From an uncultured Pelagibacteraceae bacterium (lineage in GTDB: Bacteria > Pseudomonadota > Alphaproteobacteria > Pelagibacterales > Pelagibacteraceae): a stretch of DNA of 32,677 nt. This document shows, in pieces, positions 188 through 16,332 of the stretch (position 1 is the first letter of the stretch; every line of letters begins with the position of its first letter). The notes below the pieces were generated by a model. It was not told where the DNA came from. It did not search any database and was given only the letters and a program-made list of their open reading frames with translations. The stretch spans positions 1 to 32,677 of the forward strand of contig CACGKR010000009.1 of assembly GCA_902573705.1 (NCBI GenBank), written 5' to 3'. The position numbers were made by a program, and so were the translations under genes.

Positions 188-264
188 ATAAATATATGCA
201 TAAACACTCATGAAATTCATTAATGCCCTCGTGGTGAAATTGGTAGACACAAAGGACTTAAAAT
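188..264. repeat. left copy of a ~77-bp direct repeat (tRNA-Leu 5' flank plus 5' half)
   Basis: Aligns to 5394-5470; 40/40 identical in the tRNA part, a few mismatches in the upstream part. Confidence 0.85.
225..264 (+). pseudogene. truncated tRNA-Leu, 5' half only (breaks in the anticodon arm)
   Basis: 40 nt identical to nt 1-40 of the intact tRNA-Leu at 5431, then sequence diverges. Confidence 0.9.
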
Positions 265-387: not shown

Positions 388-419
388 AACTAGTAGCAAA
401 CTAGTAGTGAGAGAGATAA
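388..419. repeat. left 32-bp direct repeat (aactagtagcaaactagtagtgagagagataa)
   Basis: 29/32 identical to 5327-5358; contains two tandem 11-mers ACTAGTAGCAA/ACTAGTAGTGA. Confidence 0.85.
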
Positions 420-425
420 ATTTGA

Positions 426-3400
426 TTACATCATGAAGTTAGATGTCGTTCTTCCAACTAATGTGTATGGCGCCCAATAAATTGGATGATTTGTTTCTGG
501 ATTTTTTAACATTTTAATTTTTGATTTCATTAAGGCAGCAGATAAATCTCCTTCACTTTCTTTGAGAAAATCAAATGTATCAACCATTAAATCTACCGAT
601 GTTTTTGAGATAACAGACCAATGGGTTACTATTAAACTTTTGGCACCGGAATAAAAAAATGAGTTAGCTAAACCAGATAAAGCTTCGCTATTTGCGTTTC
701 CATCTGATGAAGCTGTATTGCAGGCTGACAGTATTACTAGATCTGAGTTTATATTTAGATTTATAATTTCTGATGCAGTTAAAAGACCATCATCATTATC
801 TGTAATTTTTTTTGGTAAGCTTAAAACAATTGATGGCTCTGACAATCCATCTATTTCACCAACAACTAGAGCATGTGAAGCAAAACTAACCACTTTATAA
901 TTATCAAAATTTATAGAAGTTATGTTATTTTCATTAAAATCATCCCTTAAATATAATTTTGAATTTTGATCAAATTTTTTTGAAATTCTTTTTAATTCAT
1001 CTGCAGTTTCAGGGAGTTCAGGAAACATTTTCAGATATTTTAAATCAATGTTACCACCTCTTGTAAATACTTTTGAAAATTCTAATTCTAAAATATCTTC
1101 AAAATCTGATGATTCTGCTTTTTTTGTGCCTTTTATATTTGGGTCACCAAATCCTATGAAGCTGTTACCAGTATTAAATTTTAAATTATCTTCGAGGTTT
1201 AAAGCAACATAACTATAAGCACTTGGACTTATTGATATTGCATTTTTTTCAATTAACCATTGTTGATTTTTTTTATCATACAAAAGTTCAAAAGGAATAC
1301 TGTAAAGTGGACCATCAGGGATTATTATAATTTTTCTCTTATCTTTTATTATATCTGTAAAACTAGTTATTAAAATGTCATGAAGTTCTTGTGATTCTGA
1401 TAAGGCAAATTCAATAGGTTTTCCATTTTTTAACTCAAGACTATTTCTTACCTCCTTGATGAGCTTAGATAGCTTATCTTTATTTACGCCAATTCTTTGA
1501 ACTGTATAATCTTCAGATGTAATTATAGTTGCAAAGGTGTGAAAATTTCCAACTGTGTATTGAATAATAACTTCATCTTTAGGCATACCTTGATGAAGTA
1601 GTTCACCATTTACAACTTGATTAGCAAAATTCTTTTTAAGATCAGGATATTTCTTCAATATATCCTTTAATAAATTTTCTAATTCTCTATTTAACTTACT
1701 AATTTTTTGATTTCTTTTTTTAATTTTATCTGGATCAATAGTATCTAATTTTAATATTTCTCTTTTTTTTTCTAAAAGAGATGTATATTTTTTTAATTCA
1801 GCTGCAACTCTATCATCCTTTGAAATTTGTCTTGTTATAGATTCTGATAGTTTTGCAGTTAATTTATTAGATTTAACAACTTGCTGCAACGCAAACACAA
1901 GATCAATAAATCTTATATCTTTATATTTATCAAAAATTTCAATATTTTTATGTGAGTTTTTTAAAACCTCAAAAATGAAACTATGTACTTGGTCTTTATA
2001 CATACTGATTGATTGATAATCTGAGTTAAATTTTAAATCAAAATTTTGTTGATCAAACTTATTAAGTATTACAAACATTGTTTTGAGTGATACATCAAAG
2101 GCTTCATCCATTTTTTTTTCTTTATAATAACAAGCATATAAAAGAGAATAATTATTAATAAGTCTTTCATCTTTAGGATCAACTTCTTCGATACTTTTTG
2201 CTGTAGCGCTTTGATACTTTATACAACCATCATTATTATTATCTAATAAAGCTAATAAATCTGAATAATTGTATAAATATTGATAATATGGAAAAATGTT
2301 TTTAACCATTTCTTTTTCAACATATTCAATAGCTTCATCGTAATACTTTTTTGCAATAGTATAATATTTTTTTTTCTTTATATTGTCTTTTTCTCGGTGT
2401 CCTTTTGTTAAATAATATCCTCCTAGAAAATTAATTGTGTTAACAAACGTGATAGAATTTTTGTTAACAGTTTTGGATGTATTGAATAACTCATAAGACT
2501 TCATTGAAAATTTCAAAACATCCTCCTCAACCATAGCTAAAGCTGCTCTATTATTGTAGTTTGTTATTAAAGAGAAATCGTCTTGGTTTGCTTTTTCTTC
2601 TCTTTGAGTAGCTAATTTTATATATTTATCTGCTAATTCAGTCTCGCCAATACTACTATAGGCCAATGCTAAATTATTTAAGATTGTATTTTCACTTTCT
2701 AAATCTTTTTCAAATGATTTGTTTAATATATCTAATGCTAATAAATAACTATCAATCGCGTTTTGATATTTTTTTTGACCAGAATAAATTCGGCCAAAAA
2801 GATTTTGTAAATCTACCTTTTTTTTAACTTCTGATATTCCCGTATCAATAGTTTCGTAATTTTTTAACTCGTTTGCAATTTTAAGAGCATTATTAAAGTT
2901 TTCTAGGTCAATATCATTCCAAGCTTCATCAAACAGTAAATTTCTTTTATCATTGATAAAAAATTTTAATAACCAACTATCTATTTTTTTGGCTTCTTTA
3001 ATTTGCTTCTCTACTAGTTCTTTAGCATTATTTAAATTTATCTTTCTTTGCTCATAGTCATTTATCAAACCGTAATAAGTATCCAAGATCGTATATGCAG
3101 TTGTGCTTTTATCTAAAAGCTCTAACTCATCATTCATTGATAACATTATTGAATAAACTTTTTTATATTGATTTAAATCTTGTTTGATAGACTGCTCTGC
3201 ATCTAATTTTCCAAGCAATGCCATTTCTTTATCAGCAAATAATTTTTTTTTATTACTATAACTGCTATTATTCTCAAGACTTTTTTTTACATAACCAAGC
3301 GTTAAATCAAAATGAGTAATTGCTTTATCATATTGATTTGTAGATTGGTAATGAAATCCAATTTGTCTATTAATTTTTGCTTGTAAATTTAGATTTGATT

Positions 3401-4136
3401 TATTGTATTGTTGAATTATTTCATATCTTAATTTTAAATACTTATATTCATTTTTTGTATCACCTCTGGTTGAGTAAATAGATTCAACTTCAGATAATGC
3501 ATTTAAATAATCATCTGATGCCAACTCATTTGTATTTTTTATTGAAATTATTTTTATATATTGTTCATAATCTTTTATAGATTCCTCGTATCTAAAAAGA
3601 TCTTTGTATACTCTTGCTCTATGAACTAGTTGATAAGCAAATTCTTTTGAACCCGCATATTCATCTATTTCATAATTATTATTTTTAAATTCATTGAATA
3701 TGTTGATTGCTTTAGTTGAAATATTCAGACTTTTTTCCAGAAAATTATTATCTTTTAACAAACTACTTAGAAAGTAATAGCATTGAATAAGATTACGCTT
3801 TTTTTGATTAATTTTAACTTTTTTAAAATCCTTTTTTTGTTCTTCACAAGATTTACTTTGATATTCTAATGCTAATTTTTTATTACCTTCCATATCAAAA
3901 AAATGTGCTTTATCTGAGTAGGCCCAACCTAGCCACGGGAAATCCTTATTTGGTTTTTTAATATAATGCTCAATTGTTTCATCTATTAATTCGTGAGCTT
4001 TACTAGGGTTTGAAGGGTAAATTTTTCGGGCTTCTTCTAGATTATTGAATTTAAAAAATTTTGCATGTACATTAATAATTTGAAAATTAAATATAATGAT
4101 CCAAAAAATTAAATATTTAACAATATTCTTAGTCAT
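426..4136 (-). CDS. secreted TPR-repeat CHAT-domain (caspase-like) protease
   Basis: 1236 aa; hydrophobic N-terminal signal; TPR-like helices; C-terminal CHAT motifs FASHA (His codon 873-875) and LSACNTA (Cys codon 720-722). Confidence 0.9.
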   Translation of the reverse strand: MTKNIVKYLIFWIIIFNFQIINVHAKFFKFNNLEEARKIYPSNPSKAHELIDETIEHYIKKPNKDFPWLGWAYSDKAHFFDMEGNKKLALEYQSKSCEEQKKDFKKVKINQKKRNLIQCYYFLSSLLKDNNFLEKSLNISTKAINIFNEFKNNNYEIDEYAGSKEFAYQLVHRARVYKDLFRYEESIKDYEQYIKIISIKNTNELASDDYLNALSEVESIYSTRGDTKNEYKYLKLRYEIIQQYNKSNLNLQAKINRQIGFHYQSTNQYDKAITHFDLTLGYVKKSLENNSSYSNKKKLFADKEMALLGKLDAEQSIKQDLNQYKKVYSIMLSMNDELELLDKSTTAYTILDTYYGLINDYEQRKINLNNAKELVEKQIKEAKKIDSWLLKFFINDKRNLLFDEAWNDIDLENFNNALKIANELKNYETIDTGISEVKKKVDLQNLFGRIYSGQKKYQNAIDSYLLALDILNKSFEKDLESENTILNNLALAYSSIGETELADKYIKLATQREEKANQDDFSLITNYNNRAALAMVEEDVLKFSMKSYELFNTSKTVNKNSITFVNTINFLGGYYLTKGHREKDNIKKKKYYTIAKKYYDEAIEYVEKEMVKNIFPYYQYLYNYSDLLALLDNNNDGCIKYQSATAKSIEEVDPKDERLINNYSLLYACYYKEKKMDEAFDVSLKTMFVILNKFDQQNFDLKFNSDYQSISMYKDQVHSFIFEVLKNSHKNIEIFDKYKDIRFIDLVFALQQVVKSNKLTAKLSESITRQISKDDRVAAELKKYTSLLEKKREILKLDTIDPDKIKKRNQKISKLNRELENLLKDILKKYPDLKKNFANQVVNGELLHQGMPKDEVIIQYTVGNFHTFATIITSEDYTVQRIGVNKDKLSKLIKEVRNSLELKNGKPIEFALSESQELHDILITSFTDIIKDKRKIIIIPDGPLYSIPFELLYDKKNQQWLIEKNAISISPSAYSYVALNLEDNLKFNTGNSFIGFGDPNIKGTKKAESSDFEDILELEFSKVFTRGGNIDLKYLKMFPELPETADELKRISKKFDQNSKLYLRDDFNENNITSINFDNYKVVSFASHALVVGEIDGLSEPSIVLSLPKKITDNDDGLLTASEIINLNINSDLVILSACNTASSDGNANSEALSGLANSFFYSGAKSLIVTHWSVISKTSVDLMVDTFDFLKESEGDLSAALMKSKIKMLKNPETNHPIYWAPYTLVGRTTSNFMM

Positions 4137-5295
4137 CTTATTTTTTTTACCTAAATCTGTAACTTATAGTAATGAAGATATTACCTCAATTTTAAGTGAA
4201 AATATAAATGAAAATATAACAAGAGGTGGCGCAACTATTGGGGATTTTTCAATAAGCGAAAATTTTACAAAAGTAAGTGAAAAGGACATTCCTTTTGGAA
4301 CTTTAAATATTTTAGACAAGTTAAAGAATGAAAAAAATAAGACCAGAGGTACAACTGGACAAAATATTTATGGTAAGTATTCAAGAAGTGTTGTTTTAAT
4401 TTATAACAATGATATCAAAGGTACTGGTTCTGGCTCTGTTATAATGAAAGATATTGGTGCAATAATTACTAATTGGCATGTTATACAAAACGCCAAAGTT
4501 GTTGGCGTTATATTTAAAAAAGATGGTGAGATAGAAAAAAGTGATGTGATGGTTGCTGATGTTATAGGTTATGATGCTACCAAAGATTTAGCAGTGTTAA
4601 GGCTTAATGGAAAAGTTCCAAATGATGTAAATGAATTAAAATTGTCCAATAAGTTGCCAGACGTTGGTTCGGATGTTCATGCTATAGGTCATCCTGGATC
4701 ACTTTCTTGGACATATACAAAAGGCTATGTCAGTCAGATAAGAAATAATTACAAGTGGAACTATGAAAAAACGCAACATGAAGCTTCAATAATTCAAACA
4801 CAAACTCCTATAAGCCCAGGAAACTCAGGTGGACCACTAATTAGTTCTGAAGGAGAATTACTTGGAGTCAACTCTTTTAAAGCACAAGGAGAAAATTTAA
4901 ATTTTGCTGTTACTTCTTTAGAAGTGATTAATTTTTTGAAAAATATAAAAAAAATTGGAAAAAAAGAAGCGAAAAAAAAAGAAAATAAAAAAATTGATAA
5001 AGTTGTAAAAAAAATAGATTCCGATAATGACGGAAAGCCAGATACATTTTATTATGACGATGATGGGGATGGAATAATAGATACTGTCATTAAAGATAAA
5101 AATCAAAATGGTAAACCTGAATTAATCGGTATAGATACAAATAAAGATGGTAGACCAGATCTAATTGGTGATGACAAAAATGAAGATGGTGAAATAGATG
5201 CTTGGATTGTAGATAAAGATTTTGATGGTAAACCAGATTTAATAGGTACTGATACAGATGGAGATGGTAAACCTGATAAATTTACTAAGATATAA
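4096..5295 (+). CDS. secreted trypsin-like (S1/HtrA-type) serine protease with C-terminal Ca-binding-type repeats
   Basis: Signal peptide; triad motifs NWHV (His 4477-4479), KDLAVL (Asp 4585-4587), GNSGGP (Ser 4825-4827); C-terminal DxDxDGxxD repeats. Confidence 0.92.
   Translation: MIQKIKYLTIFLVILFFLPKSVTYSNEDITSILSENINENITRGGATIGDFSISENFTKVSEKDIPFGTLNILDKLKNEKNKTRGTTGQNIYGKYSRSVVLIYNNDIKGTGSGSVIMKDIGAIITNWHVIQNAKVVGVIFKKDGEIEKSDVMVADVIGYDATKDLAVLRLNGKVPNDVNELKLSNKLPDVGSDVHAIGHPGSLSWTYTKGYVSQIRNNYKWNYEKTQHEASIIQTQTPISPGNSGGPLISSEGELLGVNSFKAQGENLNFAVTSLEVINFLKNIKKIGKKEAKKKENKKIDKVVKKIDSDNDGKPDTFYYDDDGDGIIDTVIKDKNQNGKPELIGIDTNKDGRPDLIGDDKNEDGEIDAWIVDKDFDGKPDLIGTDTDGDGKPDKFTKI
5017..5292 (+). 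repeat. protein-level tandem repeats, about seven DxDxDGxxD-like units
   Basis: SDNDGKPD, DDDGDGIID, DKNQNGKPE, DTNKDGRPD, DKNEDGEID, DKDFDGKPD, DTDGDGKPD with ~13-15 aa spacing. Confidence 0.85.
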
Positions 5296-5326
5296 CTATT
5301 TTAATATATATAGAATTTTATAGGAT

Positions 5327-5358
5327 AACTAGTAGCAGACTAGTAGCTAGAGAGATAA
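5327..5358. repeat. right 32-bp direct repeat (aactagtagcagactagtagctagagagataa)
   Basis: 29/32 identical to 388-419, same orientation. Confidence 0.85.
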
Positions 5359-5393: not shown

Positions 5394-5470
5394 ATAAATA
5401 TTAGCATAAATACTCATGAAATTCACAAATGCCCTCGTGGTGAAATTGGTAGACACAAAGGACTTAAAAT
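5394..5470. repeat. right copy of the ~77-bp tRNA-Leu-associated direct repeat
   Basis: Matches 188-264. Confidence 0.85.
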
Positions 5471-5516
5471 CCTTGCCGCTTGCGGAGTGCCAGTTCGAGT
5501 CTGGCCGAGGGCACCA
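5431..5516 (+). tRNA. tRNA-Leu(TAA), CCA encoded
   Basis: GCCCTCG/CGAGGGC acceptor stem, anticodon loop CTTAAAA, long variable arm, GTTCGAG T-loop. Confidence 0.96.
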
Positions 5517-15768: not shown

Positions 15769-16332
15769 ATGAAAGATCTCCAGAAAAAATTTGATGAATA
15801 TAAAAAGAAAGTTCATTCAAAGGAGGGGATAGGGGAATTCTACGAAAGACAGATAAGATTTCTTTATGAAAAGAATGGTTGGAGAGTCGAGCCTTATGGT
15901 ATTATAAAAGGGAAAAGTGATTTAGGCAGGGATTTAATTTGTACAAAGAAAAAACAAGTTCTAATTATTCAAGCTAAAAATTGGTCAAAAAGAAAAACTA
16001 TTCACGAAAAGCATTTGATGCAATTAGCAGGCACTATCCTTTATTATATTTATAATAAGAACAATTTCCCAAAAGGTGTATTTGTGACAACAGCAAAACT
16101 TTCAGATAGAGCTAAAGATGTTGCAAAAAAATTAAACATTCAACATAGAAACATTAAATTAGATAAAAATTTTCCAATGATCAAATGCAATATAAATAAA
16201 AGAGGAAAAAAATTATTCTTTTTCCCTTTTGATAAATTTTATGACAAGGTTCATATTGATATCAAAAGTGGTGAGTTTTATACTAACAGTATAAAGGAAT
16301 GTATAAGAAAAGGATTTAAACATGTCGGATAA
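15769..16332 (+). CDS. Mrr-like / PD-(D/E)XK restriction-endonuclease-family protein
   Basis: GIGEFYERQIRFLYEKNGWRVE...DLGRDLICTKKKQVLIIQAKNWS: D-x(n)-QxK nuclease signature. Confidence 0.8.
   Translation: MKDLQKKFDEYKKKVHSKEGIGEFYERQIRFLYEKNGWRVEPYGIIKGKSDLGRDLICTKKKQVLIIQAKNWSKRKTIHEKHLMQLAGTILYYIYNKNNFPKGVFVTTAKLSDRAKDVAKKLNIQHRNIKLDKNFPMIKCNINKRGKKLFFFPFDKFYDKVHIDIKSGEFYTNSIKECIRKGFKHVG

Follow-up and report, generated by a model that had tools for sequence, protein, structure and literature searches.

Bacterial caspase-superfamily and trypsin-like proteases act as cytoplasmic immune effectors. The locus described here raises the question whether such enzymes can also form a functional unit in the cell envelope, and what that unit would do. 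The window analysed is the whole 32,677-nt stretch of contig CACGKR010000009.1 from an uncultured Pelagibacteraceae bacterium. A reading of its sequence alone had proposed that two divergent genes, bracketed by direct repeats, encode a periplasmic or exported protease cascade.

The two protease genes

The two genes and their features are as follows (positions in the window).

426-4136, minus strand: TPR-CHAT clan-CD cysteine protease, 1236 aa, export-type N-terminus
450-1394, minus strand: CHAT domain, residues 915-1229 (Pfam)
873-875 and 720-722: codons of the CHAT dyad, His1088 and Cys1139, respectively (codons checked)
4096-4136: overlap (41 bp) between the divergent gene starts, each encoding an export-type signal
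4096-5295, plus strand: DegS-like predicted-secreted serine protease, 399 aa
4345-4350, plus strand: Arg84-Gly85, candidate activation cleavage site at the boundary of pro-region and protease domain
4426-4869, plus strand: Trypsin_2 domain, residues 111-258, triad H128/D164/S244 (Pfam)
5017-5295, plus strand: seven 13-residue DxDxDGxxD-type repeats, one strand per repeat

Pfam searches of the larger protein found CHAT (2.4e-49) and TPR_12 (1.3e-13). The dyad His1088/Cys1139 was kept in 12/12 aligned CHAT homologues; with its CHAT domain and His/Cys dyad, the protein is a CHAT protease. Its nearest solved structure by sequence, kinesin light chain, covered the TPR part only, and PADLOC gave no match. 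The smaller protein matched Trypsin_2 (6.2e-25) and has the chymotrypsin fold and His-Asp-Ser triad of HtrA/DegS proteases; the triad was invariant in 22 aligned trypsins. The solved structures nearest to its fold were those of DegS without its PDZ domain, and the nearest by sequence were plant and bacterial HtrA proteins. PADLOC models matched this trypsin in their protease part only. The ORFs, Pfam matches and conserved residues thus bear out the earlier description of two genes with intact catalytic motifs.

The trypsin, a putative precursor, consists of a predicted signal sequence, a disordered pro-region, the protease domain and a solenoid of 13-residue repeats. No PDZ match was obtained in the C-terminus, where the solenoid stands in that place (AF2 model, pLDDT about 82). 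The invariant Asp of the repeats is at residues 308, 321, 334, 347, 360, 373 and 386. These repeats resemble calcium-binding repeats, and calcium binding is putative. Like DegS and DegP (HtrA), the window trypsin has a chymotrypsin-type domain and predicted export; however, it lacks a PDZ domain and differs in its seven-repeat solenoid, its long pro-region with a basic-Gly boundary and its constant linkage to a clan-CD protease.

The two genes share 41 bp at their divergent 5′ ends in the window, and 38 bp in the related loci L056 and G181; the window pair therefore has no intergenic promoter region. Relative to L056, dN/dS was 0.17 for the CHAT gene and 0.09 for the trypsin gene, both rough values because dS is high. 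Both genes are under purifying selection. Both N-termini are charged-hydrophobic and of export type, and are kept so across homologues. The assessment used visual inspection, conservation and a rough signal heuristic that also flags 39% of other ORFs and adds little. The N-termini are compatible with the signal sequences previously proposed for both proteins, and export of both proteases to the cell envelope is predicted.

A cassette hotspot in tRNA-Leu(TAA)

The pair is bracketed by two sets of direct repeats.

188-264, plus strand: left outer repeat, the 5′ half of tRNA-Leu, cut off at the anticodon loop, together with the region upstream of it
222-264, plus strand: 43-bp core, 100% blastn identity to a site of Pelagibacter phage HTVC105P, presumably its attachment site
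388-419, plus strand: left 32-bp cassette-end repeat, two 8-mers with a spacing of 11 bp
5327-5358, plus strand: right 32-bp cassette-end repeat, 91% identical to 388-419
5394-5470, plus strand: right outer repeat, 77 bp, 94% identical to 188-264
5431-5516, plus strand: intact tRNA-Leu(TAA), the integration target (tRNA call)

The bracket first noticed, a pair of 32-bp direct repeats around the genes, is real. However, it is nested inside the 77-bp tRNA-Leu repeat pair, so that the outer bracket is larger than had been claimed. The partial copy at 188-264 was not called as a tRNA in tRNA calling of the window. The ORF list held no integrase between the repeats of the window cassette, and the next gene beyond its tRNA-Leu(TAA) encodes NAD kinase. 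In HTVC105P the 43-bp core lies just after the phage integrase gene (blastn). The twin repeats of the cassette were not evident by eye in the attP flanks of this phage, itself a possible agent of the cassette's mobilisation.

The tRNA-Leu core was present in 110 of 161 genomes of the genus (core search), 41 of which had at least two copies, counted among the matches listed. We surveyed 40 hotspots together with L056 and L149. Twin octamers spaced by 11 bp were found at both ends in 40 of 48 cassettes, and the left and right octamers matched better within one cassette than between cassettes (0/10,000 permutations). Where measured, the left cassette-end repeat lies ~164-166 bp after the core start and the right one ~102-103 bp before the tRNA; the window, with 164 bp on the left and 103 bp on the right, has the geometry of the other cassettes. 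Few end repeats matched a strict 31-bp pattern because their sequence varies between cassettes; aligning the ends on their distance from the tRNA core worked where the strict pattern did not. The relatives L218 and L219 have a single core copy without twin repeats. An att core duplicated in a tRNA gene, with single-copy sites in relatives, identifies a site-specific integrative cassette. The bracket in the window is a site-specific cassette hotspot in Pelagibacter tRNA-Leu.

The cargo of this hotspot includes restriction genes (type I, IIG and IV, and McrBC) as well as pilins, metabolic genes and unknown secreted genes. A purely defence hotspot was rejected because the cargo is mixed, and guilt by association with defence is therefore weak.

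At the Pelagibacter tRNA-Leu(TAA)/NAD-kinase site, L149 and L182-L217 form arrays of small cassettes, in most of which no integrase was recognised. Their paired, sequence-variable twin-octamer ends lie at near-fixed distances from the tRNA-Leu core. The L199 cassette (G494 hotspot) spans ~8.8 kb between core copies and has many short genes, giving it a phage- or satellite-like appearance. The L186 and L195 cassettes are filled with tandem pilin-like genes that have a near-identical N-terminus (FTLIELLVVVAIIGILAAVG). Elsewhere on the contig of the window, positions 15769-16332 encode an Mrr-type restriction endonuclease (Pfam Mrr_cat, 2.2e-12).

Recurrence of the pair and change of partner

Searches of 397 genomes of the family gave 23 trypsin matches at 1e-20, one of which (G326) was a generic DegP-type protein; the trypsin subfamily is sporadic, being present in about 22 of the 397. 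CHAT matches were found in 6 of these genomes, and in 5 of the 6 the trypsin was at the same locus, the reverse of homologues nearly always occurring alone. The divergent CHAT-trypsin pair is present at three SAR11 loci (the window, L056 and G181) and in a betaproteobacterium (Rhodocyclaceae, L066). The L056 pair also lies beside tRNA-Leu; the G181 pair is at another locus. A second betaproteobacterial genome (L238) has the arrangement CHAT-trypsin-CHAT. Five weaker DegS-like matches of the same order as L238 had no CHAT.

Linkage was counted over evaluable, non-duplicate loci with a clan-CD protease within the fetched flanks. Such a protease was near the trypsin in 29 of 30 subfamily loci, versus 1 of 74 generic HtrA-type loci. 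The p-value of 3e-22 (Fisher test) was computed from counts that differ a little from these (28/29 and 1/69); because related genomes are non-independent, it is a guide only. The pairing of trypsin and clan-CD protease is not due to chance. It recurs across loci and in a second class, at a frequency far above the generic-HtrA background, in accord with the two-protease system that the sequence-only reading had proposed. The lone subfamily exception (L058) has no clan-CD neighbour; its neighbours include an OmpA-type gene. The sole generic locus with such a neighbour (L093, from a planctomycete) has a divergent CHAT gene and a DegP with PDZ. It was rejected as a family member, having neither the basic-Gly site nor the repeats. 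A phage origin of the pair was also rejected: the trypsin scan of viral_contigs gave weak generic matches only and the CHAT scan gave none. The phages and plasmids searched yielded generic HtrA matches only.

The clan-CD partner is not constant. CHAT is the partner in 8 loci, and a C14 caspase replaces it in most SAR11 relatives (label confirmed by Pfam in L034, L036 and L044, and assigned in the others with an HMM that we built from loci of this type). The trypsin tree requires two partner changes; the starred branches force only one.

A third gene is often added. A pentameric ligand-gated ion channel gene (~490 aa) was close by in 18 of the 22 trypsin family genomes; the assignment is based on a profile match to DeCLIC (8e-25) and an AF2 model that matches pLGIC folds. 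This gene resembles DeCLIC, ELIC and GLIC in profile and fold, but it is linked to two proteases and is sometimes PDZ-fused. No channel gene is in the window cassette and none was found in G000, the assembly that contains the window and is 62.6% complete, so that a channel elsewhere in this genome is possible. Some related loci add a PrsW intramembrane protease, a Sigma70_r4 gene or a small regulator, the last without a family match above the cut-off. The statement that the locus comprises two divergent genes only thus holds for the window cassette and fails for most related loci.

In L044, L063 and L065, a separate C14 subtype was observed, where the trypsin is accompanied by a Sigma70_r4-like gene (Pfam check in L044 and L063) and by a neighbour of ~250 aa.

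A candidate activation site and possible functions

The boundary between pro-region and protease domain carries a basic residue followed by Gly ([R/K]G) in 30 of 32 subfamily trypsins, versus 5 of 70 generic HtrA proteins; the first count excludes L093, which is not a subfamily member (30 of 33 with it included), one of the five generic cases is the subfamily member L066 itself, and the [R/K]G count is inflated by relatedness of the sequences. The basic residue is Arg in all 8 CHAT-partnered trypsins. In the AF2 model, confidence is low for residues 78-88 and better for the protease domain and the 13-residue repeats. The site could alternatively be structural or autocatalytic. This near-invariant boundary site makes a protease cascade more plausible.

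A second motif, [WY]I[TQKE]KK, is common to trypsins and their C14 partners, occurring in 18 of 34 and 16 of 25, respectively. It is almost absent elsewhere (one of 467 other ORFs, and none of 11 CHAT proteins or 21 channels). It sits in the N-terminus of the C14 caspase and in the linker of the trypsin (L034, L036, L050, L052 and related loci).

In the reading we prefer, the mobile tRNA-Leu(TAA) cassette encodes an envelope two-protease unit for a conditional response, in which a clan-CD enzyme activates a DegS-like precursor. We put its probability at roughly 0.4. The constant part would be the DegS-like serine protease, made as a precursor, and the variable part an exported clan-CD cysteine protease, TPR-CHAT in the window. 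Regulation would act on the clan-CD enzyme, whose TPR or N-terminal region would serve as the sensor. This enzyme would cut the serine protease after Arg84 and before Gly85 and so activate it; a specificity of CHAT for Arg is putative. The active pair would then cleave envelope targets. The most likely purpose would be a response triggered by envelope injury or phage attack, possibly ending in cell death. A role in defence is weakly favoured because the hotspot also carries restriction systems, yet much of its cargo is non-defence.

Parts of such a cascade have precedents. Csx29 of type III-E CRISPR is likewise a TPR protein with a CHAT His/Cys protease in a multi-gene unit, and it cuts Csx30 between residues 427 and 429; as described, however, it is cytoplasmic and RNA-guided, whereas the window CHAT bears an export-type signal (PMC10028731). 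No Cas7-11, Csx30 or CRISPR genes are within the two-gene window cassette. In nuclease-protease pairs and caspase-nuclease systems, as presented in PMC12799240, a trypsin- or caspase-type protease cleaves a partner proenzyme to activate it, and protease types swap between loci. There the partner is an MBL-fold nuclease, whereas in the window it is CHAT and the cassette contains no nuclease; the main text of that paper makes no mention of a signal peptide, the periplasm or CHAT. In CARD-NLR systems (PMC13236601 and reference 27 therein), trypsin-like peptidases belong to a cascade leading to membrane damage or death, with gasdermin or other death effectors. These systems, by that account, need an NLR-like ATPase and a CARD; neither is in the window cassette. 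No gasdermin gene stands beside the proteases: the cassette has two genes and its neighbour encodes NAD kinase. In the available text of the three papers (PMC10028731, PMC12799240 and PMC13236601), the systems are described as intracellular or export is unmentioned. The open literature searched contained no description of a combined exported CHAT/caspase-trypsin system, which is in line with its having been called undescribed and is not proof of absence.

On a wider view, which we hold tentatively and consider rather unlikely in full, the window would be the minimal form of undescribed envelope cascades. These would comprise a constant DegS-like zymogen, interchangeable caspase-superfamily activators and, in fuller forms, a Cys-loop-receptor-like ion channel that the cascade gates or by which it is gated. 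They may form a periplasmic death or stress circuit, comparable with the caspase-gasdermin systems of the cytoplasm but distinct from them.

Envelope-stress signalling, to which we assign a limited likelihood, is the main rival in view of the DegS fold and of the sigma-factor and PrsW genes that adjoin the trypsin in some relatives. The trypsin would cut a membrane anti-sigma factor or similar protein and the clan-CD protease would tune this step, with a transcriptional outcome and not death. DegS is the nearest fold of the trypsin. In L044 and L063 a Sigma70_r4_2 gene next to a ~250-aa gene lies between the trypsin and C14 genes, and PrsW intramembrane proteases are found in L033, L048 and L051. 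Csx29 is also described as cleaving a sigma-factor inhibitor (PMC10028731). However, genes for a sigma factor, an anti-sigma factor or PrsW are missing from the window cassette, none was recognised beside the pair in L056, G181 and L066, where neighbours were part-searched by family, and no family matched the small regulator of other loci above the cut-off.

HtrA proteases are common quality-control enzymes and SAR11 feeds on dissolved organic matter, so two degradative exported proteases might serve ordinary proteostasis or nutrient proteolysis and be co-inherited by coincidence. The single clan-CD neighbour among 74 generic HtrA loci, the sporadic presence in about 22/397 family genomes, and the specific [R/K]G site and shared [WY]I[TQKE]KK motif make this improbable. 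Still less probable is that the pair is selfish or incidental cargo, captured by one integration event without functional coupling. The hotspot does hold many unrelated cargo types; however, the same pairing is present at non-tRNA loci and in Betaproteobacteria, and partners are swapped within one trypsin subfamily. A secreted weapon against neighbouring cells or grazers would fit the export signals and the mobile cassette, but is the least probable reading, as the cassette has no secretion system or immunity gene and the channel found in relatives belongs to the producer's own membrane.

The proposed envelope protease system may act in stress response, cell death or phage defence. A conserved exported version, if true, would add a new compartment for bacterial protease cascades, in a very abundant group of ocean bacteria. 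Thanks to the basic-Gly boundary site, purified proteins would allow a direct test of the cascade idea. To our knowledge, the natural roles of bacterial Cys-loop channels are mostly unknown. An exported version with swappable caspase/CHAT partners and a linked pentameric ligand-gated channel, if true, would give these channels a genomic context. In L033, L034, L036, L048, L051 and others, the channel (in some cases with a PDZ domain) is linked to exported-type trypsin and caspase/CHAT genes. Where the channel occurs without the proteases, a small regulator is present and often PrsW as well.
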